This document shows, in pieces, positions 1,513 to 42,012 of a DNA stretch of 64,000 nucleotides. The notes under the pieces are model-generated. The model saw nothing but the letters and a program-made list of their open reading frames with translations. It was not told the DNA's origin and made no database searches. How positions within the stretch are numbered: the stretch's first letter is position 1; each line of letters starts with the position of its first letter. Made by a program: the position numbers and the translations under genes. Source of the stretch: Agarophyton chilense (taxonomy: Eukaryota; Rhodophyta; Florideophyceae; Gracilariales; Gracilariaceae). The stretch is taken from positions 2,294,001-2,358,000 of the forward strand of contig JARGXX010000068.1 in assembly GCA_030374765.1 (NCBI GenBank), written 5' to 3'.

Positions 1513-1521
1513 TCTTCCTTT

Positions 1522-5166: not shown

Positions 5167-5183
5167 TCTAAGTCGGGAGACCA
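5167..5183 (-). promoter_or_regulatory. Element 1 primer-binding site
   Basis: On the minus strand this 17 base site reads TGGTCTCCCGACTTAGA, directly after a 5 base spacer from the LTR end at 5189. It begins with TGG, as expected for pairing with a tRNA 3' CCA end. The same site, with at most one or two changes, is used by elements 2, 3 and 4. I did not identify the tRNA. Confidence 0.75.
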
Positions 5184-5188
5184 ATTTA

Positions 5189-13229: not shown

Positions 13230-13324
13230 TTGTGGTTCATCCTGAGTGGTCCATTGTGGGAGGTTTGGATGGGGAGGTGAGGAGCTCTTTGGCTCATGCC
13301 CGTCAAATTGGTTGAGGCAGGGGC

Positions 13325-14458: not shown

Positions 14459-14541
14459 CCATTTGGCTCATTTGGTGATTCTGCGAGCCACCGAACCAGA
14501 ATAATTCGCGGACCTGTCGGCCAGCATGTAATTCGGGTAGT

Positions 14542-15573: not shown

Positions 15574-15670
15574 GGCTGTTGCTTCTGTACTTCTGGTCCG
15601 TTGGGGAATTAAACCAAAGGTAAGAATCCGAATAATTTTTCGTTCCAGTAGTCCGTTCAATTATTCCAAA

Positions 15671-15685
15671 GGTTTCTAAGTCGGG
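15671..15685 (-). promoter_or_regulatory. Element 2 primer-binding site, left half, cut by element 3
   Basis: GGTTTCTAAGTCGGG here and TTGGGAGACCA at 27209-27219 together make the same primer-binding site as elements 1 and 4. Element 3 lies between the halves. TCGGG (15681-15685) and TTGGG (27209-27213) are the 5-base target duplication of element 3, with one change. Confidence 0.75.
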
Positions 15686-16536: not shown

Positions 16537-16539
16537 AAG

Positions 16540-16556
16540 TGGTGTCCCGACTTAGA
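16540..16556 (+). promoter_or_regulatory. Element 3 primer-binding site
   Basis: TGGTGTCCCGACTTAGA, three bases after the LTR. It differs at one base from the sites of elements 1 and 4, so the same or a sister tRNA primes all of them. Confidence 0.8.
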
Positions 16557-16655
16557 AAGAAAGGAGTTCCACTTGTGTGTTTCCGTCTTTTGAGGTCTTG
16601 TCAGTGTTGACCCGGAAAGTTCCGTTTTTCTCATTCCTCTCAAGGGTAACCGCCG

Positions 16656-18818: not shown

Positions 18819-18865
18819 TTGGGGGAGTCTCCTCTTTTGGAGGGGCGTCCCCAGAATCGAGACTG

Positions 18866-21800
18866 TTGACGCCCGAGGCGTCATCGCCTCGCTCCCCGGT
18901 GAAGATCCTCTCGAGGAAGGACACCGCTGACGCGGACTCAAAACACCTCGGTGTTTTGCGTCGACCGTGGATACGGGTGAAGAATCACCGGATCCCGGAT
19001 CGAGTCATGGTGATGGCCAAGCAAAACTATAAAGTTTACGCCGACCTTGGCCTGAGCCCCCAGTTTTTGGTGAGATACTTAACAGTCCTGGATGCAGGTG
19101 CTGGCCCGAACTTCATCGTCGAGAGTGCTTTACCCCCGCTACTGCGGTCTCACATTCGCTCCGAAGCGGTTCCCGACGTCGCTGATGCGAATAATAACCC
19201 GTTGAAAACGGTAGGGACCATCACTTTGGTCGTGAGGCTGCGCACCTCGGTGGTGAAGCTCGACTTCGTGGTGTGCCGCACCCTGGCTACCCCAGTAATA
19301 CTGGGCTGTGACTACTGCGACAGGTTCGTCGAGGCCATCAGACCTCGTCAGAGGATAATCGAACTCGACGACGGCTCCACCGTCGCCATAGTTCGGAAAC
19401 CGCCGAAGCGGGCATCGCCAAAGCAAGTACCGATACCGGCTGCGCAAGAACCGCCACCCGCCCAGCGGGAGTCTACCAAGCTTCGTGTTGCTGTATCGGT
19501 TGCGATACCTCCTGAGACTCAGGTTATGGTGCAGGTCAATTCCCGTCAACACGGTCTCCGGGTTATCCAACCCCTTGCCTCGTTGTACGAGAAATATCAA
19601 TTGGCCGTCGCAAACGGAATTGTCAATGTGACTCCGGATGTACCCTTCCGGCTCCTAGTCGCCAACCTTGGCACTACCCCCCAGTATCTGGTGAAGAACC
19701 AAGTAATTGGCTCGATCACCCCGCACCCATTGGCCATGCTTCCGACGAAGACCACCGCCGCCGATGTTCTCGGGATCTCAGTCTCCAAGGACGACCGCAC
19801 CGACGACGTCGTCTCTTCGTCTGGGAAGGGGGGAGCGGAGTCCGCCACGCCGAAAAACTCGGAGTCACTGCCTGTTACAGGATTACCAGAGCCCGAAGAC
19901 ACCAGGGAAACCGATGCCCTGAAGGCGCTGGAGAACCTTGAACTCGGCCACGTGCCAGACTCGCATCGCGAACGGCTACGCGGCATGTTGCGGGAATTGA
20001 CCACTATGTGGGATGGCTCCTTAGGAGAGATTAACACGACGGAACATCGGATAGATTTGCTGCCGAACTCACGTCCTTGCTCGCAACCCCCTTACAGGGC
20101 AGGCCCAAAAACTCGCGAGGAGGAACAGCTCCAAGTGGAGAAAATGCTCCGAGCCGGAGTGATAGAACCGGCTCAATCGCCGTGGGCTTCCCCAGTGGTC
20201 CTGGTTCTCAAGAGCGACGGAACCTGGCGTTTCTGTATCGATTATCGTCGGCTCAATGCCGTCACGGTACGGGATACGTATCCCATCCCTCGTATGGACG
20301 AATGTATTGACTCCCTTGGGAGAGCAACCGTGTTCACTGCGTTGGATGCAAATTGGGGGTATTGGCAAGTTCCCGTTCGGGAGAACGATCGCGACAAGAC
20401 CGCCTTCGTCTGCCACGCAGGATCGTACCGCTTCAAGCGGATGCCTTTCGGCCTCACCAACGCCCCGGCCACATTTCAACGAGCGATTGACATCCTGCTC
20501 AACCGCTTTAAGTGGCGGACGTGTCTCGTTTATCTGGATGACATCATCGTCTTCTCAGATAATCTCGAGGACCATCTCACCCATGTAAGGGACGTTCTCA
20601 CCGTGTTACGGGATGCTGGGATTACCGTCAAGCTTAGGAAGTGCGAGTTTTTCACGGACACCGTGAAGTACCTTGGGCACATTATCCGCCCAGGGCAGCT
20701 CATGATCGAGAAGGCTCGAGTTAAATCCCTCGTCGAGGCAAAACAACCTAGGACGCAAACGGAGCTCCACTCCTTCTTAGGACTTGTCAACGTCTACCGA
20801 CGGTTCATCCCGAACTTTTCGGACACTGCAGCGCCGCTGAATGCCCTGTTGCGGAAAGGCCAACCGCCAAAACTGGACCCCCTGACAGCCCCCCAGGTGG
20901 ATGCCTTTAACTCCTTAACGGAGGCTGTCACCTCAGCGCCGATCCTATCGTTGCCCCAACCGGACCTTCCGTACTCGGTGGAGACGGATTCGAGCGACTA
21001 CCAAGTTGGTTGCGCTCTTTTCCAAACCACCCCAGACGGGGAACGCCATCCAATCGGGTATTGGTCACGCTCACTCAACATGCACGAACGGAATTACTGC
21101 GTCTCGGAGAAGGAATGCCTAGCCGTAGTATGGGCACTCAGCACGCTCCGTCCCTATCTTCTATGCGTTCACTTCACCGTTTACACGGATCACTCCTCAT
21201 TGAGGTGGTTGATGAACATCTCCGACCCATCGGGCCGCCTCATGCGGTGGAGGCTCCGCCTAGCGGAATACGACTTCGAGGTCGTATACAAGAAAGGAGC
21301 GCAAAACACTCAGGCCGACGCCCTGTCCCGGTTACCCACGAATGGGGAGGCACTCCCAACGGAGGATGACGATATACCATGCTTCACAATGGAGAAACCG
21401 AAACCGGCAGCGCCGGACCCGAGTGATCCTGAGTGGCCAAATGACTGGGAAACAGACGCTGACTTTGACGCTATCCTCGCTTCGAGCGAGGACCCCACGA
21501 AGAACCCCGTACCGGGAAATTTCGAACCCATCCAACCGGAGGAACTGATCCGAGAGCAGTTTGCAGACCCGTTTTGCGCGAAAGTACGCGCCCGCCTTAA
21601 CGGTGGTGAAACCCTCCCGTTTGAGGTAAATGACGTCGGTTACCTAATCCGTACCGTCGAAAACGCCCCACAAGTCGTGGTGCCACACTCCTTGCAGACA
21701 AGGGTACTACACCTCTCGCACTTTGCGAAAGTCAGCGGCCATGCCGGCGGAAGAAAACTCTACCTCACCCTCAGAAGGGACTTCTACTGGCCCGCAATGG

Positions 21801-24178
21801 CGGTTGATTGCTATGCAACTGTGCGCTTCTGCACGCAATGTGCCAAGAACCGGGTCAAACTCCGTCGGAACGCGAAGAAGTTGCATCTATTCCCCGCAAG
21901 GGCGCTCCTCGAATTTGTCGCTATCGACATCCTCGGGCCATTAGTCGCCACGAAGCGTGGGAAGAAGTTCCTACTCGTTATCACGGATCGCTTCTCGAAG
22001 CAGGTTCGGACAGTCCCTCTACGGAGGATTACGGCCTACACCGTGGCGGAAGCTTTCGTCACGCACTGGGTCTTCGTTTATGGCCCTCATGTGGAGTTAT
22101 TGTCCGATAACGGAAAGCAGTTTGCGTCGCGGTTCTTCCAGGATGTCTGCCGCATCCTGGATGTCAAAAACCTGTTTACGACGACTTACCATCCCCAATG
22201 TAATGGGCAAGTTGAACGGTTTAACCGGACCATGCTGGCTTCGCTCCGCTCCTACGTCGCTGACCACCCAAAAACTTGGAACTTATACACGGACGCTATC
22301 ACCTTCGCGTATAATACGCAAGTGCACCGGACTACCGGGGTTTCCCCATTCCAATTGGTGTTGTCGAGGACCCCACCACCAGTGGCCCTCGAACTCCAAG
22401 CTACGCTGGACTCCTTCCCATTAGTGCGTGACTTCCGGCAACGCTGGAAAACATGGCTGACCAAGCTGGTACCGGCCGCACGGAAGGCAATGGCGCGCGC
22501 CCAAGCCGCCTACAAGCGGGATTTTGATCTCCGTCTACGGCGGGAGCGCCCCCACCCATTGAAGGCTGGCGACCGCGTGTTCGTTCGTAAGGAATACTAT
22601 AACCCCGAAAGGGAGAAACGCCATAAGCTCTCGCCTGTGGCGGACGGACCATTCAAGGTTATCTCGGTTACACCGACAACGGTCGTCGTGGAAATGGGAG
22701 ACAATCACGAACGACTCTCCCGTGACCGGGTTACCTTGGCTCCGCCTGCCTCTCCTGAAGTTATTTTACAACCACCTGCAGAGCAGGACTCGGGGGTTCC
22801 AACGACATCAGCAACACCGGGTACCCCGGCACTTGAACGCCCCAGCGTTCTGCCTCACCCCACCCGGGGATTTTCGGACCTACCATACCTAGTAGATGGC
22901 CCGCCGACTGTGTCGGCACCGGCTGGCTTTTCTCGCCAGCCAACAACCGGTCTCACTCGACCGGGGATCTACTCCCGCCATGCGGTTCGCTCGCTGCCCT
23001 CCGTGGCTCCACCTCGGGAGGGGGAGCGACATCTCCGTTCGGAGCAATCTTCGCCGTCGCAACGGATGTCACGCAGCTCTACTCAATCGGGCATCCCGCC
23101 AGAAGCTACGCCCACTCCCGCGAACGCGGCACGCGACGATGAAGCCACACGTGGTTCTCAGGAACACCCACCGTCGCTGACGGAAGGCTCGCGCCTTAAA
23201 GTGTCTGAAGAACAAGGGAAGCTGAACGCCACTATCCGCAGTGCGGAAAAGTCAGCCACAGTGGGCACACCAACGCCTGGACTTGGCCCGCGCAGCCCCT
23301 CAGGGGACGTTCAAAGTCATGGAACCCGTCAAGGGAATGGTCAACCGGCCGCGCCGGAAATTACCGCCGCGGACGGACGTCATCTCCCCACAGGGGTGCG
23401 CTCGGAGCAGCACATGCCACGATCACGAGAACGCACGAAAAGCGTTACAGCCGACCCTGGCGCTGGGGAGAGTCAAGTACCGGCAGAGCCGGGAGACGCG
23501 CACGTTGGAAATGGGAAGTCTGCCCGTGGAAAGGGAGGATTTTTGAAGAAAAATCCTGGCCCCAAAAAGGGTGAATTTTTTGAGACCTCGCGCGCGGCGC
23601 ATCACGGCGACACCCCCCGAGGGGAAGAGCCGGCGCCCGTCGAGCGGCGTCCCACGGCGAGCGAAGTGTCAGCCCGCTCGCGCTGGGCCACGGACCACGC
23701 TGGGGAGGCAGATCGCACAGCACGTGCCCGCCATCCGTCTCAGGCGGCACGTGACCCGACCACACCCCCGCGTGCACGGCAGACACCCGCTGCAGCGGAG
23801 ACGCTATCCCGCAATAGCGGTAGTTTACGACGGGATAACCGCAGACTCGCGGTACGACCGGAGTACCGGGAGGAAAGCGCGGAACGCCTGTCCGACGGGA
23901 ACTACCCCAGCGGGGAACCCACCGAGACTTCGGCTGGTGTTACCACCAAACGGCAGGGCCGGGAAGTATACATACAAGAGTATGTGGTGGACCGAATCCT
24001 CGGGCACTCGTACGACGAGAGCGGGACTTTACAATACCTCGTCCGTTGGTACGGATACGATGCTTCGTTTGACTCCGACGAGCCAATCGAGCATCTTCCC
24101 CGTTCCCAGGTGGTACGATATCACCGCCAAGCGGGTACTGCGACTCCAGCTACGCTGTGTACCACCCAGGTTGGTTAG
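18866..24178 (+). CDS. pol: Element 3 Pol polyprotein: protease, RT, RNase H, integrase, chromodomain
   Basis: A 1770-codon open frame; it stays open upstream into gag and is probably made by -1 frameshifting, so 18866 (a TTG) is not a true start. Protease: VLDAGAGPNF near residue 76, with Ala where DTG or DSG is usual. RT: VYLDDIIVF (Asp 558/559). RNase H: VETDSSDYQVG and YTDHSSLRW. Integrase: H/H/C/C zinc motif around 949-985, then Asp near 1020 (AIDILGP), Asp near 1080 (LLSDNGKQF) and Glu near 1117 (CNGQVERFNRT). A low-complexity linker of nearly 400 residues precedes a chromodomain near 1702-1752 (LQYLVRWYGYD). Complete except for the protease change. Confidence 0.93.
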   Translation: MTPEASSPRSPVKILSRKDTADADSKHLGVLRRPWIRVKNHRIPDRVMVMAKQNYKVYADLGLSPQFLVRYLTVLDAGAGPNFIVESALPPLLRSHIRSEAVPDVADANNNPLKTVGTITLVVRLRTSVVKLDFVVCRTLATPVILGCDYCDRFVEAIRPRQRIIELDDGSTVAIVRKPPKRASPKQVPIPAAQEPPPAQRESTKLRVAVSVAIPPETQVMVQVNSRQHGLRVIQPLASLYEKYQLAVANGIVNVTPDVPFRLLVANLGTTPQYLVKNQVIGSITPHPLAMLPTKTTAADVLGISVSKDDRTDDVVSSSGKGGAESATPKNSESLPVTGLPEPEDTRETDALKALENLELGHVPDSHRERLRGMLRELTTMWDGSLGEINTTEHRIDLLPNSRPCSQPPYRAGPKTREEEQLQVEKMLRAGVIEPAQSPWASPVVLVLKSDGTWRFCIDYRRLNAVTVRDTYPIPRMDECIDSLGRATVFTALDANWGYWQVPVRENDRDKTAFVCHAGSYRFKRMPFGLTNAPATFQRAIDILLNRFKWRTCLVYLDDIIVFSDNLEDHLTHVRDVLTVLRDAGITVKLRKCEFFTDTVKYLGHIIRPGQLMIEKARVKSLVEAKQPRTQTELHSFLGLVNVYRRFIPNFSDTAAPLNALLRKGQPPKLDPLTAPQVDAFNSLTEAVTSAPILSLPQPDLPYSVETDSSDYQVGCALFQTTPDGERHPIGYWSRSLNMHERNYCVSEKECLAVVWALSTLRPYLLCVHFTVYTDHSSLRWLMNISDPSGRLMRWRLRLAEYDFEVVYKKGAQNTQADALSRLPTNGEALPTEDDDIPCFTMEKPKPAAPDPSDPEWPNDWETDADFDAILASSEDPTKNPVPGNFEPIQPEELIREQFADPFCAKVRARLNGGETLPFEVNDVGYLIRTVENAPQVVVPHSLQTRVLHLSHFAKVSGHAGGRKLYLTLRRDFYWPAMAVDCYATVRFCTQCAKNRVKLRRNAKKLHLFPARALLEFVAIDILGPLVATKRGKKFLLVITDRFSKQVRTVPLRRITAYTVAEAFVTHWVFVYGPHVELLSDNGKQFASRFFQDVCRILDVKNLFTTTYHPQCNGQVERFNRTMLASLRSYVADHPKTWNLYTDAITFAYNTQVHRTTGVSPFQLVLSRTPPPVALELQATLDSFPLVRDFRQRWKTWLTKLVPAARKAMARAQAAYKRDFDLRLRRERPHPLKAGDRVFVRKEYYNPEREKRHKLSPVADGPFKVISVTPTTVVVEMGDNHERLSRDRVTLAPPASPEVILQPPAEQDSGVPTTSATPGTPALERPSVLPHPTRGFSDLPYLVDGPPTVSAPAGFSRQPTTGLTRPGIYSRHAVRSLPSVAPPREGERHLRSEQSSPSQRMSRSSTQSGIPPEATPTPANAARDDEATRGSQEHPPSLTEGSRLKVSEEQGKLNATIRSAEKSATVGTPTPGLGPRSPSGDVQSHGTRQGNGQPAAPEITAADGRHLPTGVRSEQHMPRSRERTKSVTADPGAGESQVPAEPGDAHVGNGKSARGKGGFLKKNPGPKKGEFFETSRAAHHGDTPRGEEPAPVERRPTASEVSARSRWATDHAGEADRTARARHPSQAARDPTTPPRARQTPAAAETLSRNSGSLRRDNRRLAVRPEYREESAERLSDGNYPSGEPTETSAGVTTKRQGREVYIQEYVVDRILGHSYDESGTLQYLVRWYGYDASFDSDEPIEHLPRSQVVRYHRQAGTATPATLCTTQVG

Positions 24179-24556
24179 ATCCCCGTCCACACGGAAACAA
24201 CCTCCAAGGTGGAATGGAGACCAGCAGCCTTTGTTCCTCCTCGCAGGGCAGGCAACCCACACTAGATGGTTTTCATCCAGAACACTGGCTAAATCCCGTG
24301 ATCACGGTTTTCCCATCGGGATGGACGTTCGCCCTGTTCGTGCTGCTGCTAAACTACACTGGAAAACCAGCCGCTCACCGCGGCGCGGACCTAACCACCG
24401 GTTGACCGGATATTCATTGGCCATGGCCATCCCGTATTCCCGGGGGATGTTTCCGCGCTTCGCGTGAGGATGGGGGGGTAATTAAGACAACGGTCACTTT
24501 TACTACGTCTATGTCGCAAAGAGCGCCTTCGCTTCGCGACCCGGTGGGACCGACTG
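24179..24556. other. Spacer between pol and antisense ORF of element 3
   Basis: 378 bases between the pol stop and the end of the antisense ORF, where transcripts from both strands would converge. Element 4 has a comparable 332-base spacer. I see no gene in it. Confidence 0.5.
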
Positions 24557-26259
24557 TTAGCGATCGCCCCCATCCGAGGGAGGAACTCCGCCCAGGCGGG
24601 TAACAAGCTTCTCCCGCATCGCGGCAAGGTCACCGGAGGTGTCGTTCACGCTCAGACCCACTCCTCGGAGGAAATTGGCGACGATCGCACCCTCGTCCAA
24701 ACCTGCAGCAGGCTCTTCGCCCGCTCCTGCCGACGAGGGCCCGGGGTTCGGAACATGGGAAACCGGCGAAGCCGCGCAGTGGGAAACCTCTCGCGGAGGA
24801 CTAAACTCTTCCGGCGTAGCCGTGCGACCCGCACCCACGCCCCGAACCGGGACCTCCACGCCTTCCATGCCCTCGGGATCGCCCCTCGCTTCTTACCCGT
24901 CATCTCCGAAGGGAGTGCCGTTAGCCGGACCGTCCGGATCGTTGTCCACCATGGGGTCGTTCTCATCGTACACCCGATAATATTCATCGGCGTCGATGAA
25001 CCCTCGCGGGTGCCCCGCAGGAATGACTCTCGAGCTCGCCCGGTACTCTTCCTCCTCTTCGCGGCCTACCTCCCGGAGCTTCCACGGGTCGAAGTATATG
25101 AAGTCGCCCGCAAGCGGGGTATTCCTCCCTAGCCCGGGACCACTTCCGCCACTTCCGCCATCGTGGCGGCCGCTTTGTTCAAGCGGAACCTCGGCCCAAT
25201 GCACGGAATCGATGAAATCGAGTAGGGCCGCCACCTCCTCGCAATTTGTAACACCCCCAAGGGGGATTTACATGTCCAAGCGACGCATGGCAGCCCGCAC
25301 GCGCGGTTGAACGTACCATACCCGGTATCGGTCATAAACCTCCGCGAGGAGAAATGCCGCGGTGCAGACGGCCCATTCGGTTATCACGACCGACCACAGC
25401 CCCGCTTGGGGATCCCTGAGAAGGTATGACCTTAAGTAGGTGAACACCGGGGGCAGCTCAATATAGCACCCCCGGCACGACTCGAAGTGGCTCCACCACG
25501 GTGGGAGGGGGACATACCGCCCTTGTCGGTGCGCGGGTGTGATCCGTTCAGCCTCGATGTTCTGGTACGGGACAAAATACCCGTATCGGGAACGCGCTCG
25601 CCGCTCGAAGCGGATGAAATTCTGCAAGAAGTTCGACCGGTACGTCCGGGGCATATAGCGGAACTCCGCACGGAGGAGCGGCCTTGTCCAGCACATTGCT
25701 TCTTGCCTGGCAACAGGAATGTTTCGCCAAGCGAAAGTCTCCGACTCCGCCAAGCGGGAACAGTACCCAATCTCCCCGCCCGTGCGGTAGAATTCCACAT
25801 CGAACCCCGTGAATGGGGGAATGAGTGCATCAATCGGCGCCCGGCCTTGCCGGTGTCGGCTCCGTCCACGTATTGGGACAAGAGTTCTTCGTCTCGCACT
25901 GCGGTCGGGTGAAACCATGGCGCGCGGCGGAGTACAAACGCGCCACGCAGAGTATTCGGGTTTTGCCCTACTAGGGAGTGGTAGGATGGCCACTGCCGAG
26001 TGGTTGTTTCACCGCTTCGCGCGGACCCGCCACGCGGATGAGAAGGCGCTGGATTGTTCGAATCGGCGTGGGACATTGGTCGTGTAGCCGACGGCGTCGG
26101 AAGAAGGTGCGTCAAACACGGATGTTCGAACCTCTGAGGAGGATGGGTGAACGCGGAAGCAGGAAGCTGTTGCCACGAGTTGCGCGACAAAGTCGGAGAA
26201 GTGTTCCTCGCTTGAGGTCGGTGGGCTGCGGAAGCAGAAGAGTTGTTGGAAGGAGACAT
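24557..26259 (-). pseudogene. Element 3 antisense ORF, frameshifted and internally deleted
   Basis: On the minus strand, between pol and the 3' LTR. Fragments in order: 26259 to about 25850 (Ser/Pro-rich start, then APWFHPTAVRDEEL), 25268-25850 (GFDVEFYRTGGEIGY, RSNFLQNFIR, GYFVPYQN), 24893-25234 (GPGLGRNTPLAGDFIYFDPW) and 24557-24868 (FLRGVGLSVNDTSGDLAAM). Each block matches the element 4 protein in order, many at high identity. About 65 residues present in element 4 are missing after QYVDGA, and the frame changes at least twice. So the gene was intact in an ancestor of this recent element. Function is unknown. Confidence 0.8.
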
Positions 26260-26345
26260 GATGCCGGCGAACCGGAAGAGGGCGCGCTTTTATGGAGTTC
26301 TCAGACTGCGCTCCGTCCCGCTTTGCGGGTACTCCCCTGGTCTTA

Positions 26346-26356
26346 CGGGGGGGATA
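26346..26356 (+). promoter_or_regulatory. Element 3 polypurine tract
   Basis: GGGGGGGATA directly before the 3' LTR start TGAGG at 26357. Element 4 has the same junction, GGGGGGATA before TGAAG. This is where plus-strand DNA synthesis would be primed. Confidence 0.7.
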
Positions 26357-27208
26357 TGAGGTGCACGCCCTCTGAAGGGGGTTTTCTTGGACTTTGTATT
26401 TTTCCGGAACATCCGGCACTTGCTCATTATATGAGTACAGTCTATGACCGTTCACCGGAATGCCGGAATGTCTACACGTGTGGGACGGTTGGCAGGTGTA
26501 GTTATGACCACAGTAGGTGGGTGGATAGGAACTCCCTATCTATTTATTTATTTATCTATTTATTTATTTAGTTATTACACTAGGGGAGCTACAGTACTTA
26601 GTGCGACGGCAGTGGCCGCCGCACCAGTAAACTCCCCCATCAAGGGTCCCGATCTCAATCTTCCCCAAGGTTGCCGATCTGGGTTTGGCTCTGGTCTCTA
26701 CCGCCTACGCCGGCTAATCACCTCTCATGAGGAGTGGCGCGTAGCACTCGGGTTGACCATCCTCCTTGCCCGCCTAAAGAGACCCATCGCTGGGAGTGTT
26801 TTTCCAACTGTTGTTGTGTTTCGCCTTGTTAAGGGTTTGTCTCCGGCTGTGCCGTATCATACAGAGCCACTCGCGTGACTCGGTGCCATCGCCCCTCGTC
26901 CCCCTCCTTCTCCCTTTTTCCCTTTTTCCTTTTCCTCGTTCCCCGATTACGGGTAGCATCCCGCTATCCGCGGCTGTACCGACACGTCGGATCACGGCCA
27001 CCGTGTGGACCTTTTCCTAAATCCGAGGCACACGCACAAGAGGAGCCCTTCTTCACCTCCCTGCGCAAGTCGCGACGGGTGACTCCGGCCTTACAACCCG
27101 GCTAAGTCGTGTCACCTCTGGGAGCGCTCTTTTCCGCTCAGCTACCTCCGTGGAGGAAGATCCCGAGCGTCTTCGTGGTGTTTTCCCGCACGCGGGCATT
27201 GCACTACA
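26357..27208 (+). repeat. Element 3 3' LTR
   Basis: 852 bases, partner of 15686-16536. It is followed by TTGGG, the altered copy of the target duplication, and then by the rest of the element 2 primer-binding site. Confidence 0.9.
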
Positions 27209-27222
27209 TTGGGAGACCAAAA

Positions 27223-31904: not shown

Positions 31905-32765
31905 TGTAGGACAATGCCCAGAAGGGGGAAAACCTACGAAGACGTCCGGATCTTCCTCTCACGAGGTAACCGGCGCGGTAGAGCCCTCCCAGGGATCGGC
32001 GCGCAATGCCGGGTGTAAGCCGGAGCCGAACCGTCGCGACGGGCGCAGGGAGGCTGAAAGAAGCCGAGAATATCCGCTGGAGCGGTGCTTGCGTATCCTC
32101 TGAAGAGGCGAAACCCACGAGAGTGGCGAGCACGACAGGTGTCAGTGCGAGCCGCAAGAGCGGGAATTGCCCAATGAAGGGGAGAAAAAGGGAAGGAAAA
32201 TGGGAACGGAGGCAAGAGGGCGAGGTTGACCACGAGTCGCAAGAGGGGACTCGGGAATAGCCGGCACTGGCGGGTGTAGCAAACCGTATACACGGGCGGA
32301 ACCACGAAAGGGGAATAGATACCCAACACACGAAGGCTGCTTGAACGTCCAAGGGGGTTGGGAAGCCGTGCACCACGGGAAATCCCTCCGTAAAGAGTTG
32401 TATATCCGCGCAGGCGGTTCGACCCAGAGCCAAGATCTGGAAGACCAAGATCACCCTTTGGGGAGACTTTACTGGACAGGCGGCCGCGAGGCCGGCGGCC
32501 TAAGTACTATAGTCACCGTAGAATACAATAAATAAAGTCTATCCTAAATAGCTAAATGTCCGTCTAACAAAGGGACCTATCTGGCGGCCACGTGTCGCGC
32601 GGGCGCTGCGGCCACGTGTATGGCACCCGGTCCCGCCGGTGCATCACCGGCGTTCCGGGTGTCGCCGTGAAAACGGATTACTCCTACTCATAACGAGGTT
32701 GCACGCCGGAGGCTCCGGAAAAAACTTAAGTCCCCAAAAACCTCCCTGGAGGACGTTGCTCTTCA
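31905..32765 (-). repeat. Element 4 3' LTR
   Basis: 861 bases. Plus strand runs from TGTAGGACAATG to GCTCTTCA. On the minus strand the start TGAAGAGC follows the polypurine tract. The antisense ORF starts 46 bases inside it, so the LTR is placed to supply its promoter. Confidence 0.92.
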
Positions 32766-32776
32766 TATCCCCCCCT
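32766..32776 (-). promoter_or_regulatory. Element 4 polypurine tract
   Basis: Minus strand AAGGGGGGATA directly before the LTR start TGAAG. It is the same junction as in element 3. Confidence 0.7.
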
Positions 32777-32811
32777 TAAGACAGGACGAAGACCTCGAAG
32801 AGGAAGTCGGC

Positions 32812-34587
32812 ATGGCAGCTCGTCATGATAAGAGCGCGTCCGACACCGGGTCTCCGGAAACCAACACACCTTCACCAAGGATCCCACGCACGCTCTCCGC
32901 ATCCGATTCTAACAACAGCACACCAACACGCACCATGTCCAACCCCGACCGTTATAACACATCCGCGACTCCCGCCCTTGGCGGTTCCACCGGCTTCCGG
33001 TCCGCGCCCCACCCTGGGGATATTACCAACCTCGCGTACGAAGACCGCCGTATTGGCGCCCGCTTTCGCGGACAGGCGGACCCACCGCAGTGGCCGACCT
33101 ACGACGCCCTTGTGGGTGCGAATCCGAGAACTCGGCATGGCTCCGCGAGGTTGCGGTATGCGCCTTGGTTTCACCCATTGGCTGTCCGCGACGAGGATTT
33201 GATCCAATCCTACACCGATAACTTGGAGATGCTCCCGGGCGACCTGCCCGGCGTGGTGACCCTGTCCTGGGATTGGCGTAATCGTATCGCCATACCGGTA
33301 CACCACATACTCCGCCGACGCGGTGAATCCTCTGCGGAGGCTCAAGCCGCACTTGTGCGGATCGCTTATCTCAGGCACCATCGGGCGCCTTTCGAGTTCC
33401 CGATACCGCCAGAGGTCGAATTCGACGTCCACCTTTACCGCACTCGCGGGGAAATGTCGTACTGTGACCGTCTTAACGGGTTGGAAACCCTCGCTTGGAG
33501 GGGCACACCGATCGCTCGGCAAGAAGCCCTTTGCTTGGCACGACCGATTCTTTGGGCAGAGTTCCGCTATCAACCGCGGCAGTCGCGCTCGAACTTCCTT
33601 CAGAACTTCATCCGCGATGAGCGGCGTTGGCGGGCCCGGACCGGGTATTTCGTACCGTACCAGAACACGGAGAGTGAGTGCATCGCGCCGGCTCACCGAC
33701 GTGGTCGGTACGTCAGTCTCCCAGACTGGTGGTCCTCCTTGGAGGCGTGCTGGGGTTGCTTCGTTGAGCTGCCCCCAGTATTCACCTGTGTAGGGTCGTC
33801 GTTCTTGAACGATCCCCAGTCGGGGTGGTGGTCCGTCGTGGTCAGCGAATGGGCCGTCCGCACTGCGGCTTTTATCCTCGCTGAGGCGTACGACCAATAC
33901 CGATTGTGGTACGTGCCACCGCGTGTGCGGGCTGCGATCCGTCGTTTGGACATGCGCATCCCCCTCGGGGGCGAGGCGAACGAAGAAGAGATGCTGGGCC
34001 TCCTCGACTTTGTGGAGGGGGTCCAGTGGGATGAGGTCCCGCTGGAGAACTCCCAACGCATTCAACCGCGTTGCGGGCCTGGCCCCGGACTCGGGAGGAA
34101 TACCGCGCTAGCGGGGGATTTCGTCTACTTCGACCCCTGGGAGTACCACGAGATCAGCCGCGAGGAAGCGGAAGCCAACCGGCATGCGCCGCGTGAAGTC
34201 CCGGCCGACCACCCGCGAGGGTATGTCGACTCGAACGACTATTACCGCGACTATGCGGATGGTGACCCGATGGTCGACAACGAACCGGAGGATCCGGGTT
34301 ACGCTCCGATGGAGGATGACGGGTCCGGCGAGGCCGGTGAGGAGTCCGTTGAATACGGTGGTGCGGCTCCATCCGGGGCTGCTGATGCCGTGCGAACGGA
34401 TTCCTATCCGACTCCATCGGTGGCGGGCCCGCCCGCAACTGCCGCTGGCGCGGAGTGGGGCGAGGTCATCGCGCGCTTCCTTCGGGAGGTGGGGCTTCGC
34501 CCTTCCGAGATCTCGGGTGATGTGGCCGCCATGCGGGATGCCTTAGCCAACCGCCTGGTCGGGGGTCCACCTCGTGCGGAGGAATGA
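32812..34587 (+). CDS. Intact antisense ORF of element 4, unknown function
   Basis: 591 codons, ATG in a good context (CGGCATGGC), opposite in strand to gag and pol and located between pol and the 3' LTR. The protein begins with about 70 disordered Ser/Thr/Pro-rich residues. A long Trp/Tyr/Arg-rich body follows (APWFHPLAVRDEDL, RSNFLQNFIRDERRW, GYFVPYQN, WWSVVVSEWAVRTAAFILAEAY), then a GPGLGRNTALAGDFVYFDPW block, an acidic tail, and a C-terminal helix (FLREVGLRPSEISGDVAAM). I see no signal peptide, strong membrane segment, zinc motif or nuclease motif. Related ORFs sit at the same place in elements 2 and 3. A role in regulating or packaging the element is possible but not shown. Confidence 0.85.
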   Translation: MAARHDKSASDTGSPETNTPSPRIPRTLSASDSNNSTPTRTMSNPDRYNTSATPALGGSTGFRSAPHPGDITNLAYEDRRIGARFRGQADPPQWPTYDALVGANPRTRHGSARLRYAPWFHPLAVRDEDLIQSYTDNLEMLPGDLPGVVTLSWDWRNRIAIPVHHILRRRGESSAEAQAALVRIAYLRHHRAPFEFPIPPEVEFDVHLYRTRGEMSYCDRLNGLETLAWRGTPIARQEALCLARPILWAEFRYQPRQSRSNFLQNFIRDERRWRARTGYFVPYQNTESECIAPAHRRGRYVSLPDWWSSLEACWGCFVELPPVFTCVGSSFLNDPQSGWWSVVVSEWAVRTAAFILAEAYDQYRLWYVPPRVRAAIRRLDMRIPLGGEANEEEMLGLLDFVEGVQWDEVPLENSQRIQPRCGPGPGLGRNTALAGDFVYFDPWEYHEISREEAEANRHAPREVPADHPRGYVDSNDYYRDYADGDPMVDNEPEDPGYAPMEDDGSGEAGEESVEYGGAAPSGAADAVRTDSYPTPSVAGPPATAAGAEWGEVIARFLREVGLRPSEISGDVAAMRDALANRLVGGPPRAEE

Positions 34588-34919
34588 CCGGAGCTTCCGG
34601 TAGAATGTAGGGCGGCGCAACTAGGGCGCCCTTGCCAGTAGTGAGAAATAAAAGAAGAGGGTCGCCTTTCCGACGCCCTTTCCCAAGTCCGCTTCTTTCT
34701 TTCCGGGGTACCGGCCTTCTACCGGGGTTCCGGCGTTGCAGGGAACCAGCCTAGCTGGGAGTTCCGTGTTTAACGGTGGGCGCTTCGCGCGCGGACCAGG
34801 TAACTGGCACGACCACCAACGACGTTAGGATAGCGTGAGCGGTTGCTTCCTTCCCCGCGTTGGGGCATGGACGGAGATGGCGCGTGGCGCCATCAGCCAT
34901 TCCATTCCGTGTTCACGGT
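34588..34919. other. Spacer between antisense ORF and pol of element 4
   Basis: 332 bases between two convergent stops. I see no gene. Transcripts from both strands would end or overlap here. Confidence 0.5.
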
Positions 34920-37900
34920 TTATCCCTCTTGGGCCTTTACCAGCGTGGCTGGGAGTGCGGTCCCCGCAAGGCGGTGGTATCGCATTACCGCAGAGCGCGG
35001 GAGGTGCTCGATGGGCTCCGGGGTGTCCCACTCCGGCCCGTATCCGTACCAGCGGGTCCGATACTGGAGCACCCCGTGCTCATCGTAGCTATGTCCGACG
35101 ACTCGGTCGAGGACGTACTCCTGCACGTAAACATGCCGGCCTTGCCGGGTGGTGGTGACCCGAGGCTCAGCGCCGCGTGGTGCTGGGCTCGTCGTCGCCT
35201 GTTCCGGGTCACCCAGTTTGTCATTCCGCTCTGCGGTTGTTGCCGGGTTGCCGGGGCTGCCGTACCGCTTCGCGGAAGTTGCCGGCGCGGCCGGGTTGTG
35301 TTTCCGCTGGGCGGTAGGGGCTTCCCTGAAGTCCGCTCTTACTGCGAGTTGGCGGGGGTCCTTCCGTCTTGGTGACGGTTCGCTGGAGGCCTCCGCTTGA
35401 TTGGCGGCCTGCGGCGTTCCCATTGGTGGGCAGTTTCCGCTGTGCGGTGCGCCGCGGGCGGTGAGTGGTTCACCGTCCCGGCGATCTGCCTCCGCGGGGT
35501 GGCTGTCAGCCAATGACTGGGATGCCGGGTGCCCATTGGTCCGATCTCCCGCCCGGGTCACGTGACCTTGAGAACGGGTGGTCGGGACGTCGCGGACGGT
35601 TGGCTCCGATTGTTCGGCAAGGGAGGCGGTTTTCGACTTGTCGTCGCGCCCCTTTTCCCCCATGGGGTTCGTACCGTTCTCAACGGAGTGGCTCGCTAGA
35701 CCTGCTTGCGCAGCGCTCGCCGGAGTACCGGTATCAACCGAAACGCTCGTTGTGTGCCCGCGAATGTGCGGGGAGCCCTCAGTTGCTTCCACGCGATGCG
35801 GAGCGTCCGTAGGGTCTCGCTTCACGGCTTCGGGTCTTCGAACGCCTTGGTTCCCCTTTCGGGGTGGCGTGGCGGTCGGGTTGACCGCCGCGTCCCGCGG
35901 GAGCGGATTGGCCTCCGGCGACGATGCCGGTTGCCCGCTCGGGGGACTTTCCCGGGGTGTCCGGTTAAACTTCCGTTGCGACGGCGATGCTTCCGCGATG
36001 GAGCGGGTCCCCTCCCCCTCCTTAGACGGAGCGACGGGTGCTGGTGGGCTAACCGCATGGCGGGTATAAATACCGCTGCGCGGCGCCCGTAAGGGTAGCT
36101 GGCCGCGAGGGCCAGGTGTTTCCGGCATTTCCGGTGGTTCCGATAAAGTCGGTATATCGAAGAGACCCCGTGAGGGGTGCGGTACCACGGCGGGGCTTCT
36201 AAGCCATGGTGCCACGGGTACGGGTGTTTCATTCTCGCGCGCTGCGAGTAGCTCATCCATTTCCATGGTGTCTTCCCCGGTTTCGGGCCAATCCGACTCC
36301 GTCGGTGTTTCCCCTTCCAAGGTAAAGCACGGGATCTCGTCGACCTCCGGGTCGGCAAGTGCTTCACCTGTCGTAGGTAATCGAGAGAGGGCGTCTGCTT
36401 GGGTGTTCTGGACACCCTTTTTGTAGACGACCTCGAAGTCGAATTCCGCTAAGCGGAGGCGCCACCGCATTAAGCGGCCAGAAGGATCTGCGATGTTCAG
36501 CAGCCACCTCAACGAGGCATGGTCCGTGTACACGGTGAAATGAACGCCCATGAGGTATGGGCGCAGAGTGGATAGCGCCCAGACCACTGCGAGGCACTTC
36601 TTCTCGGAGACCGAGTAGTTGCGCTCGTGGACGTTTAGCGTGCGGGACCAATAGCCAATTGGTTTGCGTTCCCCCTCGGGGGTGGTTTGGAACAGTGCGC
36701 AGCCCACCTGGTGGTCGCTGGCGTCGGTGTCGATGGAGTAGGGAAGCCCAGGTTTGGGCAAGGATAGGATGGGAGCTGTCGTAACTGCCTTAATCAAGGA
36801 GCGAAAAGATTCCGACTGATCGGTGGTAAATGGCGCAAGCTTCGGTGGCTGGCCCTTCCGCAGTAGCGCGTTTAGCGGAGCGGCGATATCCGAGAAACTC
36901 GGTATAAACCGTCGATAGACGTTGACCAGACCTAAAAAGGATCGGAGCTCCGTTTGAGTACGGGGCTCCTTCGCCTCGCAGAGGGACTTGATACGAACTT
37001 GTTCGATCATTAACCGTCCTAGACGGATGACGTGCCCGAGATACTTCACCGTATCGGTGAAGAACTCGCACTTCCTCAACTTGAGGGTTATTCCTGCGTC
37101 TTGCAGTACGGTCATCACGTCCCGCACGTGGGTCAGGTGATCGTCCAGGTTTCTGGAAAAGACAATGATGTCGTCCAAGTAGACAAGGCACGTGCGCCAC
37201 TTGAAACGCGACATCAGTATGTCTCTTGCCCTTTGAAAGGTGGCCGGTGCATTGGTTAAACCAAACGGCATCCGCTTGAAGCGGTAGGAACCCGAGTGGC
37301 AAACAAACGCGGTTTTGTCTCGGTCCTCTTCCCGGACTGGGACTTTCCAGTAGCCCCAGTTAGCATCCAGAGCCGTAAACACGGTAGCGTCCCCGAGCGA
37401 GTCTATACACTCGTCCATGCGCGGAATCGGGTAGGTGTCCCTCACGGTGACGGCATTGAGGCGGCGGTAGTCAACGCAAAACCGCCACGTGCCGTCAGCC
37501 TTGACGGTCAGCACCACCGGTGAAGCCCAAGGAGATTGGGCGGGCTCGATGACTCCAGCACGGAGCATCTTGTCCACCTGAAATTCTTTTTCCTCCCGAG
37601 CTTTCGGTCCCGCCCTGTAAGGGGGTTGTGCAACCGGACGTGCGTCCGGTAGCAAGTCTATCCGATGTTCGGTTGTATTGATCTCACCCAGTGAGCCGTC
37701 CCACATTGTGGTAAACTCGCGTAGCATTCCGCGTAAGCGGTCCCGGTGTGAGACCGGTACATGACTCAGGTCCAGGTCCTCGAGGGCCTTGATCGGGTCT
37801 ATCTTATCGTAGCTCGTAGGCTGTGCCCTGGTGTCAGGTGTGGGAACCGACGAGGTCGGAAATGCATCCGTCCTGACGGTTTTATCGAGCGCCAACTGCT

Positions 37901-38879
37901 GTGCCTCCCCGGAGGTTTCTGCACCGGATACCGGGAGACCATCCTCGGTAGAGGGAGTTATTCCGAGTACTTCGGCAGCCGTCACCTTTGTAGGGAGCAT
38001 CGCGAGCGGGTGCGGCGTCACAGACCCAATGACTTGGTTCTTTGCCAGCGTCTGGGGAGCCTTTCCCAGATTGGCAACCAACACCCTGAAAGGGGAATTC
38101 GGCGTGACTTGCACGATTCCGTTCGCAACGGGTAACTGAAATTTCTCGTACAACGAGGGCAAGGGCTGAACAACCCGAAGACCGTGTTGACGGGAATTGA
38201 CTGAAACCATAACCAGGCTCTCCGGGGGTATGATTACTGACGAGGCAACGCGTAGCTTCGTAGAATCCCGGTTCGCCGGTGTGGGTTTCTGCGCAGCAGG
38301 TAGAGGAACGTGTTTCCTCGATGCCCGCTTCAGCGGTTGACGAACAATGGGGACGGTCGATCCGTCCTCAAGTTCCACCTGCTTAAGGCGTGGGCGGATG
38401 GCGTCGACAAACCTGTCGCAGTAGTCACATCCCAGTATAACTGGCGCGGCCAGCGAGCGGCACACAATAAAAGTTAGTTTAACCACCATCCGCCCTAGCC
38501 TGACGACCAGGTCGATCACACCAGCCGTTTTCAACGGGTTGTTATTGGCGTCCGACACGTCGGATACCGTTTCAGAACGGATGAGTGACCGCAATGGCGG
38601 GGGTAAAACCGATTCCACAATAAAGTTCGGCCCAGCACCTGTATCCAGGACAGTGAGATGTCTCACCATAAACTGCGTGTGCAGACCAAGGTCAGCGTAA
38701 ACCTTGTAGTTACGCTTGGCCATTACCAAGACTCTATCCGGGATCCGGTTATTTCTAATCTGTATCCACGGTCGACGCAACACACCGAGGTGTTTAGAGT
38801 CCGCGTCTGCGGTGTCCTTCCTTGTCAGGATTTTCACCGGGGAGCGAGGCATCGGCGCCTCGGGCGTCGTCAGCCTCAA
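34920..38879 (-). CDS. pol: Element 4 Pol: protease, RT, RNase H and chromodomain, no integrase
   Basis: A 1319-codon open frame; position 38879 is a TTG, and the frame is open upstream to the gag slip site, so it is probably made as Gag-Pol. Protease motif VLDTGAGPNF is intact. RT has the VYLDDIIVF motif. RNase H has IDTDASDHQVG, YTDHASLRW and TQADALSR. After IPCFTLEGETPTE the sequence jumps, near 36190-36240, to PHPSRGLFDIP, which in element 3 lies after the whole integrase; about 440 residues are missing in frame. The Pro/Ser/Arg-rich linker and the chromodomain (LQYRTRWYGYG) end the protein. Fully open, but cannot integrate on its own. Confidence 0.9.
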   Translation of the reverse strand: MRLTTPEAPMPRSPVKILTRKDTADADSKHLGVLRRPWIQIRNNRIPDRVLVMAKRNYKVYADLGLHTQFMVRHLTVLDTGAGPNFIVESVLPPPLRSLIRSETVSDVSDANNNPLKTAGVIDLVVRLGRMVVKLTFIVCRSLAAPVILGCDYCDRFVDAIRPRLKQVELEDGSTVPIVRQPLKRASRKHVPLPAAQKPTPANRDSTKLRVASSVIIPPESLVMVSVNSRQHGLRVVQPLPSLYEKFQLPVANGIVQVTPNSPFRVLVANLGKAPQTLAKNQVIGSVTPHPLAMLPTKVTAAEVLGITPSTEDGLPVSGAETSGEAQQLALDKTVRTDAFPTSSVPTPDTRAQPTSYDKIDPIKALEDLDLSHVPVSHRDRLRGMLREFTTMWDGSLGEINTTEHRIDLLPDARPVAQPPYRAGPKAREEKEFQVDKMLRAGVIEPAQSPWASPVVLTVKADGTWRFCVDYRRLNAVTVRDTYPIPRMDECIDSLGDATVFTALDANWGYWKVPVREEDRDKTAFVCHSGSYRFKRMPFGLTNAPATFQRARDILMSRFKWRTCLVYLDDIIVFSRNLDDHLTHVRDVMTVLQDAGITLKLRKCEFFTDTVKYLGHVIRLGRLMIEQVRIKSLCEAKEPRTQTELRSFLGLVNVYRRFIPSFSDIAAPLNALLRKGQPPKLAPFTTDQSESFRSLIKAVTTAPILSLPKPGLPYSIDTDASDHQVGCALFQTTPEGERKPIGYWSRTLNVHERNYSVSEKKCLAVVWALSTLRPYLMGVHFTVYTDHASLRWLLNIADPSGRLMRWRLRLAEFDFEVVYKKGVQNTQADALSRLPTTGEALADPEVDEIPCFTLEGETPTESDWPETGEDTMEMDELLAARENETPVPVAPWLRSPAVVPHPSRGLFDIPTLSEPPEMPETPGPRGQLPLRAPRSGIYTRHAVSPPAPVAPSKEGEGTRSIAEASPSQRKFNRTPRESPPSGQPASSPEANPLPRDAAVNPTATPPRKGNQGVRRPEAVKRDPTDAPHRVEATEGSPHIRGHTTSVSVDTGTPASAAQAGLASHSVENGTNPMGEKGRDDKSKTASLAEQSEPTVRDVPTTRSQGHVTRAGDRTNGHPASQSLADSHPAEADRRDGEPLTARGAPHSGNCPPMGTPQAANQAEASSEPSPRRKDPRQLAVRADFREAPTAQRKHNPAAPATSAKRYGSPGNPATTAERNDKLGDPEQATTSPAPRGAEPRVTTTRQGRHVYVQEYVLDRVVGHSYDEHGVLQYRTRWYGYGPEWDTPEPIEHLPRSAVMRYHRLAGTALPATLVKAQEG

Positions 38880-38914
38880 CTCTGAGGACGCCTCTCCCGA
38901 AGGGGAGACTCCCT

Positions 38915-41026
38915 CTATTCTTTTCCCTGTACAGGGTCCTGGTCGGGCGAAGGCCCGACTTCCTCGGCAACGAGTGCATGTTTCCGTCGCACGGTAGCTA
39001 CCGCAGGAGCGGGTTGAGATCCACCAGCGTGGTTTGGCGCTGATGCGGCGCGTGCCGGCTGAGCCGGTTTGTACCGAGAATTCGGAGTGTGAGCCAATGC
39101 GTTGGGGAAGTCCGTCTTCGCGCGGAGATATGACGTGAGTGGCACGGAGCCCTTCTCCTGCGGGGAGAGGGCTTCGTAATTATCCACCACTCGCGTCATA
39201 TCGCGTAGCGATAAAAGGCATTGCGGGGAGATGTGCCCGCGCTCGTAGCACAAGTGGCACACCAACGTCACTCCCGCGTTTCGCGGTACGGCATTCCGAG
39301 CATCGGTGTATCTTCCGGATTCCCGGTTTCCAACCCATCCAGGGCGCTGACATCGTGTCATTCCGTTTGAGTAAGGCATACGGGGGGCCGGAGTGCGGCG
39401 GTCATTAAGATAGGAGACCTGCCCGTTCTCCGTGTCCCTTGCGGTTGAGGCAACCGAGCCATCCGTCGTAGACGGTAATTACGTTGTCGGAATAGATAAA
39501 CCATCGTGATGGATGACATTCATATTGTCATAACCCTGTTTGGGGATGCCATCCGTCGCAAATGACGGTGAAGAAGAGTCTGACTCAAGCAGCAATGCTT
39601 TAGCGGCCTTCGACCGGGTTCCCGGATTGCGTGCAGGTAGTGCATCTCCCTCTGCGCGGGCAAACTGTACGAGTTCAAGGTAGGTCACCTTCGGCTCTTG
39701 TTCCCTGTAACGGGCGACAAGAGTCTTGATGGCTGGATCCAAGCCATCAAGGAACATCGTACAGCGTTCCCCAGCGGGGTATACATTACCACAACGGTGG
39801 AAAGCCTTATTCAGGCGTACCGAGTAATCGGTCTCGAGCTCGCCGGAGCGTTGTCGAGTGTCTCGCAAAGCGAGCATCGCCGCTTGTATCGCGGTGCTGG
39901 TTGCGTAGGAACGCAGGAGGTACTGCACGGCCTCGGGCCAGCAGGTCACACCTCCTTCGGAGGCTCGCGACGAGCCCCGAACCGACAAAAACTGATCTTT
40001 AGCGACACCCCGTAGAAAGTAGGGTAGCGCCACGTAGGCTTGTCCTTCGTTCATTCCGAGTATATCGGCTTCCGCTACAAAGCGGTGTAGGAAATCCAAG
40101 ACCAGAATTGGATCATCCCCAGTAAATGACTGGTTACGAAGTGAAAGCTGCATCCGCTTGATGCAGTCTTTCACTTTACCCGTGTCACGCGGTGTCCGAC
40201 CTAAAGATGAATCTTCTAGCCGGTAATACCGGTAGGACAGAAGTGTCCTGTACAGAGGGTTGGTGGGCTTTAAGGGTTTGAGGCCCGGATGTCGCCGACC
40301 CTTGGGGCGCGACCGGATGGCCCCGTAGGTGGCAGAGGACCGCTTTGAGCGGGAAGAGCGCCCATAACGATCCTGTGGGTCATCGCTCACCGACGAATCG
40401 GAACTCTCCGAGTCACTCGGTTTACCGTCCGACTCAGATGATGAGTCGGACGGGGGTCCGTGCTTACGGTTAGAATCCCGGTTCTTCCGGTTCTTCCGGT
40501 TCCGCGACTGGGTCTCTCGATGAGAGACAACCGGTCTAGCCGCGTTCGCGGGCGAGGTTAACGTCCTCTCGACCGACTCAAGTCGGCTTCGGAGACGCTC
40601 GAAGCAATTCTCCATACCTTCTGCGAAGGAAGACGGAGCGCCAAAACACTCGAGTAGTGTATTGACGTACGACCGCAATACGCGGATATCCTCGGCTAAC
40701 TCACTTGTAGGGGGGTTAGCGAGGCTTCCTCGTAAAGAGGTGAACTCCCTCGAGAGGGTATTGTGAGCAGCCCGCAGGGAGCGGAGTTGCTCTTCCAAGC
40801 GTACAACCCGCGCTTGGTCGACCACCCGCGGAGGCGGAGAAACCACCGTTGCGACGGTCGTTAACCCGGAATCAGGCTGCGGGTCTTCAGTGCCGGTGAC
40901 CGGTATCTCCCGGGAATCCGGTGTTGGAGCCAGGGCCTGTGGAACATCAGTGCCCCTGGCATCACCGCTTTGGCGGGAACGGCTGCGTGTTGCAGGAGGC
41001 TCCATGCTAGGCGGTTTCCTTGGCAT
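38915..41026 (-). pseudogene. gag: Element 4 gag with one in-frame stop
   Basis: Begins at ATG 41026 (MPRKPPSMEPPATRSRSR) and ends at the TAG at 38915. One TAA at 39479-39481 interrupts it; the same frame continues and aligns with element 3 gag on both sides (IPTT, stop, LPSTTDG against IPNTDLPSTTD). Capsid blocks (LLSYRYYRLEDSSL, CWPEAVQYLLRSYATSTAI) and the zinc knuckle CHLCYERGHISPQC are intact. About 704 codons in all. Without readthrough only a protein lacking the zinc knuckle would be made, and pol could not be reached. The damage looks recent. Confidence 0.9.
38921..38927 (-). promoter_or_regulatory. Candidate -1 frameshift heptamer in element 4
   Basis: Minus strand reads CA G GGA AAA GAA TAG: the heptamer GGGAAAA in the gag frame fits the X XXY YYZ slippery rule and lies four bases before the gag stop. 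The pol frame is exactly -1 and open from here (K-R-I-E-G-V-S-P). Confidence 0.65.
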
Positions 41027-41129
41027 TGGCCACACCGTCTCGACGGAAGAATTGAAAGCAAACCGGTGAGACCGGAGAAAACCCGTTAAACGGAAAACAA
41101 CCTCAGAGAGGACACAAGCGGTCTTGACT

Positions 41130-41146
41130 TCTAAGTCGGGAGACCA
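41130..41146 (-). promoter_or_regulatory. Element 4 primer-binding site
   Basis: Minus strand TGGTCTCCCGACTTAGA, three bases from the 5' LTR. Identical to the element 1 site. Confidence 0.8.
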
Positions 41147-41149
41147 ATT

Positions 41150-42012
41150 TGTAGGACAATGCCCCCAAGGGGGAAAACCTACGAAGACGTCCGGATCTTC
41201 CTCTCACGAGGTAACCGGCGCGGTAGAGCCCTTCCAGGGATCGGCGCGCAATGACGGGTGTAAGCCGGAGCCGAACCGTCGCGACGGGCGCAGGGAGGCT
41301 GAGAGAAGCCGAGAATATCCGCTGGAGCGGTGCTTGCGTATCCTCTGAGGAGGCGAAACCCACGAGAGTGGCGAGCACGACAGGTGTCAGTGCGAGCCGC
41401 AAGAGCGGGAATTGCCCAATGAAGGGGAGAAAAAGGGAAGGAAAATGGGAACGGAGGCAAGAGGGCGAGGTTGACCACGAGTCGCAAGAGGGGACTCGGG
41501 AATAGCCGGCACTGCCGGGTGTAGCAAACCGTATACACGGGCGGAACCACGAAAGGGGAATAGATACCCAACACACGAAGGCTGCTTGAACGTCCAAGGG
41601 GGTTGGGAAGCCGTGCACCACGGGAAGTCCCTCCGTAAGCAGTTGTATATCCGCGCAGGCGGTTCGACCCAGAGCCAAGATCTGGAAGACCAAGATCACC
41701 CTTGTTGGGTAGACTTTACTGGACCGGCGGCCGCGAGGCCGGCGGCCTAAGTACTGTAGTCACCGTAGAATACAATAAATAAAGTCTATCCTAAATAGCT
41801 AAATGTCCGTCTAACAAAGGGGCCTATCTGGCGGCCACGTGTCGCGCGGGCGCTGCGGCCACGTGTATGGCACCCGGTCCCGCCGGTGCATCACCGGCGT
41901 TCCGGGTGTCGCCGTGAAAACGGATTACTTCTACTCATAACGAGGTTGCACGCCGGAGGCTCCGGAAAAAACTTAAGTCCCCAAAAACCTCCCTGGAGGA
42001 CGTTGCTCTTCA
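41150..42012 (-). repeat. Element 4 5' LTR
   Basis: 863 bases, partner of 31905-32765. It is followed on the plus strand by ACTAT, the target duplication. Confidence 0.92.

Follow-up and report, generated by a model that had tools for sequence, protein, structure and literature searches.

The window analysed here is a 64-kb stretch of a red-algal assembly (Agarophyton chilense, 79.8 Mb in 135 contigs) and contains four LTR retrotransposons, elements 1 to 4 (families E1 to E4; Table 1). Two further families enter the comparison: E5, which was chosen by its integrase, and E6, a sixth family. Antisense to gag-pol, in the interval from pol to the 3' LTR, the elements encode a protein of about 560-690 residues; its position and orientation are alike in elements 1-4 and E5, while E6 has been seen as the ORF alone.

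Table 1. Positions in the 64-kb window of the retrotransposons, their antisense genes and adjoining features
Feature	Position	Strand	Remarks
Element 1 (5' part)	1..5961	-	LTR 5184-5961; antisense gene left of the window, at L067 2661-4183
Element 2	6483..15685	-	Split by element 3; other LTR 27223-27664, 10.6% different
Element 2 antisense gene	about 7348..9298	+	Remote homologue; frameshift near 8020, stops; open in other copies
Element 3	15686..27208	+	LTRs 15686-16536 and 26357-27208, 1.2% different; inside element 2 near its primer-binding site
Element 3 antisense gene	24557..26259	-	Homologous; stops and a frameshift in this copy, open in other copies
Element 4	31905..42012	-	LTRs 31905-32765 and 41150-42012; from repeat match and sequence letters
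Inner LTR edge and polypurine tract	32705..32782		Similar in E3, E4 and E5; immediately upstream of the antisense start codon
Element 4 antisense gene (aORF)	32812..34587	+	Open, 591 codons
ORF opposite element 4 antisense gene	32872..34107	-	411 codons; without constraint, judged a shadow ORF
Element 4 pol	34920..39179	-	RT and RNase H kept (Pfam); integrase deleted in frame, junction about 36215
Element 4 gag region	38915..41203	-	Single stop codon in the window copy; open in L063 within the extent of that locus

In element 4 the antisense ORF translates without interruption, and the remaining five frames of the same stretch contain 3-21 stops. The earlier note had described a wholly open ORF of 591 codons in an element whose gag carries a stop, and both statements are correct. 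The polypurine tract lies in the 46 bp that separate the start codon from the LTR edge, and the ORF ends about 330 bp short of the pol stop codon. The element is bounded by a perfect 5-bp target-site duplication, ATAGT, read from the letters at 31900-31904 and 42013-42017. The insertion of element 3 hit element 2 at its primer-binding site (15676-15690, 27205-27230), and the 5-bp duplication is imperfect (TCGGG/TTGGG). The antisense gene and the pol ORF of element 2 run towards each other and seem to overlap at their 3' ends, at about 9186-9298. Elsewhere in the window are a Tc1/Tc3-like transposase in two ORFs (56852-58180; DDE_3 and Tc3 helix-turn-helix), a subtilase gene that is probably a host gene (44962-46419; Peptidase_S8, E=2e-21) and three 155-bp direct repeats, 66-70% alike and spaced at 280-282 bp (43264-43980).

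The antisense protein is homologous across six families, each with at least one open copy. In a tblastn search of the window, the element 4 protein (P0001) is 55% identical to the element 3 copy over 425 residues (E=5e-144) and 34% identical to its start over 141 residues (E=7e-17), the homology spanning nearly the whole length. The element 3 copy is thus related, as the earlier note held, although the gene in the window is itself broken; open copies of its family exist, for example L033 with 614 residues. The element 2 copy was missed by single-sequence tblastn with the element 4 protein in the window, and a small profile containing one misaligned, wrongly framed element 3 piece matched it weakly (E=0.2). 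Profile-profile comparison gave a probability of 91.6 (E=8e-7), and a wider profile of eight sequences gave 95 (E=3.7e-8). In controls made with the smaller profile (E=8e-7) only, the real score was 59.3, compared with 28.2 for the best of 100 local shuffles, 26.4 for the best of 100 full shuffles and 21.1 for the reversed sequence. On the strength of these profile scores, we consider the element 2 antisense protein to be a remote homologue of the element 3 and 4 proteins, and the similarity that had been claimed for this diverged copy is above that of the shuffled controls. The element 2 family also has open antisense copies (L061 and L062).

The relationship noted among elements 2, 3 and 4 extends beyond them. 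The element 1 gene was found in five pieces 1.3-2.8 kb left of the window (E 1.4e-22 to 1.9e-6). All three E5 loci chosen by integrase alone (82-84% like that of element 3) carry the gene, with E=6.4e-209, 9.5e-162 and, for a copy in pieces, 3.5e-77 at best; one is open, one cut short and one fragmented. E6 was reached by a search with an element 1 piece at about 45-49% identity, and two of its copies are open, at 611 and 607 codons. Copies are numerous elsewhere in the genome, which passes a test that the earlier note had set: P0001 matches at least 74 scored places, an element 3 piece at least 150 (7 of these element-3-like), each of two element 2 pieces at least 150 and the element 1 piece at least 153. 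Internal stops are absent from 49 of the 74 best-scoring element-4-type places (the best 74 of 1870 candidates) and from 32 of 42 unique element-4-type copies, two of those 32 having a one-base alignment gap. Some element-4-type antisense genes lie exactly 9197 bp (G000 C68:3138181, 3147378 and 3156575) or 9249 bp (C77:295889 and 305138) apart, spacings that suggest tandem elements with common LTRs.

The reading frame is under purifying selection. Between E4 and E3, dN is 0.396 and dS 1.451 by NG86 (0.376 and 2.893 by ML); the NG86 yardsticks from the same pair are 0.279 and 1.778 for pol and 0.328 and 1.888 for gag. The other family pairs are similar by NG86 (E4/E5, 0.452 and 2.022; E3/E5, 0.469 and 3.275; E1/E6, 0.429 and 3.346). 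Taking NG86 and ML together, the between-family ratio is 0.11-0.27 over the pairs with estimable dS, which leaves E1/E4 outside the range, and dS is near or beyond saturation throughout. The ratio is therefore far below 1, in keeping with the selection that the earlier note had supposed. Close pairs show weaker constraint (NG86 dN and dS: E6, 0.046 and 0.088; E2, 0.108 and 0.243; E3, 0.028 and 0.040), and under ML dN exceeds dS in the close E3 pair, as expected if copies decay after insertion. Variation within the element-4-type group points the same way. From 53 rows of fetched loci, element-3-type rows being excluded, 42 unique copies were obtained, among which pN/pS falls from 0.90 for singletons to 0.61 for variants in two or three copies and 0.42 for those in four or more; synonymous variants make up 70 of the 167 shared ones, where 47.9 would be expected (P=0.00017). 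When the window copy serves as reference, the ratios are 0.92, 0.62 and 0.44, with 72 of 169 synonymous against 50.1 expected (P=0.00023). The copies were chosen by protein similarity, which could lower pN/pS; the singleton values of 0.90-0.92 suggest that this bias is small.

Since a 411-codon ORF lies on the opposite strand, in the sense of the element, we considered whether it is the true gene, encoding an Env-like protein, and the antisense ORF its shadow. The frame of the 411-codon ORF is without constraint: pN/pS at shared variants is 1.09 and 0.98, 46 of 167 shared variants are synonymous against 48.1 expected, and between E4 and E3 dN is 0.59 and dS 0.45 after removal of 9 codons because of stops. 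The remaining frames of the E4/E3 alignment have dN above dS, except at minus-strand offset 2 (0.42 and 1.06), which also gives shared-variant ratios of 0.69 and 0.66 and might be taken to favour a sense gene. That frame, however, has many stops (27 codons dropped), and its ratios below 1 are explained by its third codon position, which coincides with that of the antisense gene. We judge the shadow reading refuted and the chance of a sense-strand gene negligible. An Env-like role for the antisense protein itself was also rejected, because of its orientation and because its strongest hydrophobic span reaches only 1.82 (19-residue hydropathy maximum). A different possibility is that the antisense RNA alone matters, through silencing or an RNA duplex, and that the ORF is incidental; antisense RNAs are reported to regulate several retrotransposons (PMC7264820). 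The constraint is specific to one frame, and the protein is conserved across families despite nearly saturated synonymous sites, so we think this explanation very improbable. That the locus is a conserved protein-coding gene we regard as close to certain.

The gene appears to be as old as the lineage. Relative to E3, RT identity over the main pieces is 86% for E5 (266 residues), 85% for E4, 61% for E1 and 53% for E2, and the corresponding antisense protein identities are 49%, 53%, 30% and 21-23%. Judged by these identities across five families, the antisense gene diverges alongside pol, but faster, and this parallel divergence makes it look ancestral to the lineage. One alternative is that a host gene was captured by a single element and then spread; gene capture is known among retroelements (PMC7264820), and an ancient capture that preceded the family split would be compatible with the data. 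Against capture stand the presence of the gene in all six families, the divergence in parallel with RT in five of them, its occurrence at each of the three integrase-chosen loci and the protein searches (2, 3 and 3 records, the best 8000 candidates scored in each), which returned no recognised cellular family. We consider capture a poor explanation, scarcely more probable than the RNA-only one. The matches in those searches, known from protein sequence alone, include a named Agarophyton chilense record and a Gracilariopsis chorda protein that is 55% identical to the element 4 protein over 99% of its length and 61% identical on another alignment. E4 is thus closer to the Gracilariopsis homologue (61%) than to E3 (53%), which suggests that the E3 and E4 families separated before the genera did; interspecies transfer or unequal rates could also produce this closeness.

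The antisense protein begins with a low-complexity region rich in Ser and Pro, continues into a conserved core rich in Arg, Trp and Tyr, with invariant R, W, Y, P, G and C positions, and has an acidic tail; outside E2 the proteins also share a short conserved end. An acidic stretch is present in all 11 sequences measured, with a net charge of -8 to -18 in the lowest 60-residue block. The two E2-type proteins, L061 and L062, have a long extra C-terminal part that bears, near the end, a motif resembling a nuclear signal (KKRAR or KKRTR). By the same simple pattern, there is one short match in E1 and no basic nuclear-signal motif in the E3, E4, E5, E6, Gracilariopsis and P0002 proteins. Nothing convincing was returned by a Pfam scan of 11 antisense proteins (one chance match, E=0.24), by a PDB search (one chance match, E=2.7) or by a search of IMG/VR. 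AlphaFold2 gave a mean pLDDT of 30 with 4 sequences and 33 with 14, and we therefore make no claim about the fold. Compared as the wider profile with gag and pol of elements 3 and 4, the protein gave a probability of 0.1.

The earlier note had spoken of a lineage of chromodomain gypsy elements. This is true of element 3, whose pol contains RT, RNase H, integrase and a C-terminal chromodomain above the Pfam cut-off, the arrangement of a chromovirus-type Ty3/gypsy element, and its gag matches no Pfam family. The chromodomain matches of element 4 and E5 fall below the cut-off, the end of the element 2 pol (9189-10196) matches no Pfam family, and the chromodomains of elements 1 and 2 are putative, being only a reading of the letters. 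The integrase is indeed absent from the element 4 pol by Pfam. It was not lost by private decay of this copy, which is ruled out by the matches listed for a 241-bp junction probe: 34 of 40 span the deletion at 96% or more (the window copy included), and 6 of 40 end at the junction. The deletion is a property of an amplified subfamily, of which the window copy and related elements, at least, retain RT and the antisense gene. The clean target-site duplication indicates that the window element integrated as a unit; its integrase may have been supplied in trans.

Among the 74 element-4-type antisense places, a full junction match lies at the expected distance from 26, another 22 lie about 2.0 kb from an integrase and 26 have neither among the matches listed; the integrase comparison used 78 of 150 integrase places, the other 72 being element-3-type and most E5-type matches. 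Internal stops occur at 6 of the 26 deletion places and 9 of the 22 integrase places, these places having been chosen by protein score. The gene is therefore free of internal stops at 20 of 26 integrase-deleted places, and likewise in 13 of 15 unique fetched copies. This bears on whether the protein has a part in integration or in nuclear import, for example jointly with integrase. The protein is encoded by the same element, the comparable maize gene23 product is reported to be nuclear (PMC7264820), and an integrase acting in trans could still be its partner; retention of the gene by elements that have lost integrase argues against such a role, which we consider unlikely. At shared variants, 15 deletion copies have 24 of 61 synonymous against 18.4 expected (P=0.079) and 15 integrase copies 26 of 65 against 19.7 (P=0.06), so the synonymous excess is significant in neither group alone.

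Ty1 p22 is a product of gag that controls copy number, and the antisense protein, as an accessory product encoded by elements with many copies, might limit them in the same manner by interfering with Gag, RT or transport. The profile comparison with gag (the probability of 0.1 given above) excludes a gag-derived restriction factor of the p22 type. A self-limiting protein unrelated to gag is a broader idea; selfish variants should lose such a gene, yet the amplified integrase-deleted group has kept it. We rate self-limitation no higher than the integration role.

Antisense ORFs located here had been described before: they are reported from Grande, RIRE2, Retand and PvRetro13 and from the fungal element Boty, and the function of the plant and fungal proteins is given as unknown (PMC7264820, PMC11963269). 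The earlier note had recognised that such ORFs exist, and its further statement that the protein resembles none of them stands for TRP28, the domain borne by most Retand antisense ORFs (PMC7264820, PMC11963269). TRP28 (PF04195) has no match in 11 red-algal proteins at E up to 5; a PF04195 search of the whole genome was also empty, but its control was likewise silent. With aORF-3R of the plant Retand/Tat elements, the gene has in common a gypsy host element, antisense orientation, a place between pol and the 3' LTR, conservation throughout a lineage and an unknown function (PMC11963269, PMC7264820); position and orientation agree in elements 1-4 and E5, and there are many copies across families. 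Retand, however, is a non-chromovirus found in flowering plants only (eudicots and Liliopsida; PMC7264820, PMC11963269), whereas the element 3 pol has a chromodomain and the host is a red alga. The gene shares the place and orientation of maize Grande gene23 and of the rice RIRE2 antisense ORF, and Boty provides a fungal example outside plants (PMC7264820), all three being likened here by description alone. We thus assign the gene to a known positional kind and its product to a separate protein family, since the gene shares the place and orientation, yet lacks TRP28 and sits, in element 3, beside a clear chromodomain. What is new is the protein family, the host group and the depth; a literature search by title and abstract opening, mostly outside subscription journals, found no red-algal or Agarophyton elements with antisense ORFs.

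HBZ of HTLV is a bZIP protein, and the red-algal protein differs from it in having about 600 residues and no Pfam match, hence no recognised bZIP. The likeness lies in the arrangement: HBZ and other retroviral antisense genes also adjoin the 3' LTR in antisense orientation, and in HTLV the antisense promoter is within that LTR (PMC7264820). Grande gene23, on the other hand, is reported to have its own upstream promoter (PMC7264820). A promoter in the LTR of the red-algal elements is putative. The inner LTR edge next to the start codon is 77% alike between E3 and E4 over 79 bp and is a weak candidate for an antisense promoter or leader; the stretch also contains the LTR end and the polypurine tract, whose conservation has other causes. 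A scan of the LTRs for TATA boxes found two in E5 and two in E6 and none in E3 or E4. We think it likely that the gene is expressed in antisense from the LTR.

We suggest the following explanation, modelled on the proposals for plant aORFs and on HBZ. The gene, read against gag-pol, would be ancestral to the families examined and inherited together with pol. An antisense promoter in the 3' LTR would drive transcription of the gene, and the encoded protein would act in the host cell, probably in the nucleus, where it may regulate or help the element through transcription, chromatin or the fate of the genomic RNA. As a whole, this account of an LTR-expressed accessory gene of a red-algal gypsy lineage, probably a nuclear regulator or helper, seems to us evenly balanced between right and wrong. 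Its most specific part, a nuclear regulator in preference to some other accessory role, falls a little short of even and is put forward tentatively.

A broader reading can be offered with rather more reserve. The antisense genes may form an ancient, fast-evolving family that arose before the split between Gracilariopsis and the present host, independently of TRP28 and HBZ, and that benefits the element even without an integrase of its own. The last point follows from the retention of the gene by an integrase-deleted subfamily that spread; we have lowered our estimate, since the integrase-deleted copies taken by themselves show no significant constraint. Until now, antisense ORFs located between pol and the 3' LTR have been an oddity without explanation, and most of the study given to them has been in flowering plants. 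With its several families, many open copies and an integrase-deleted group as a natural comparison, the red-algal gene makes it possible to test, by comparison and with ordinary expression assays, what an LTR element gains from an antisense protein. If the broader reading is true, antisense regulators adjoining the 3' LTR would be a recurrent solution in plants, retroviruses, fungi and red algae.
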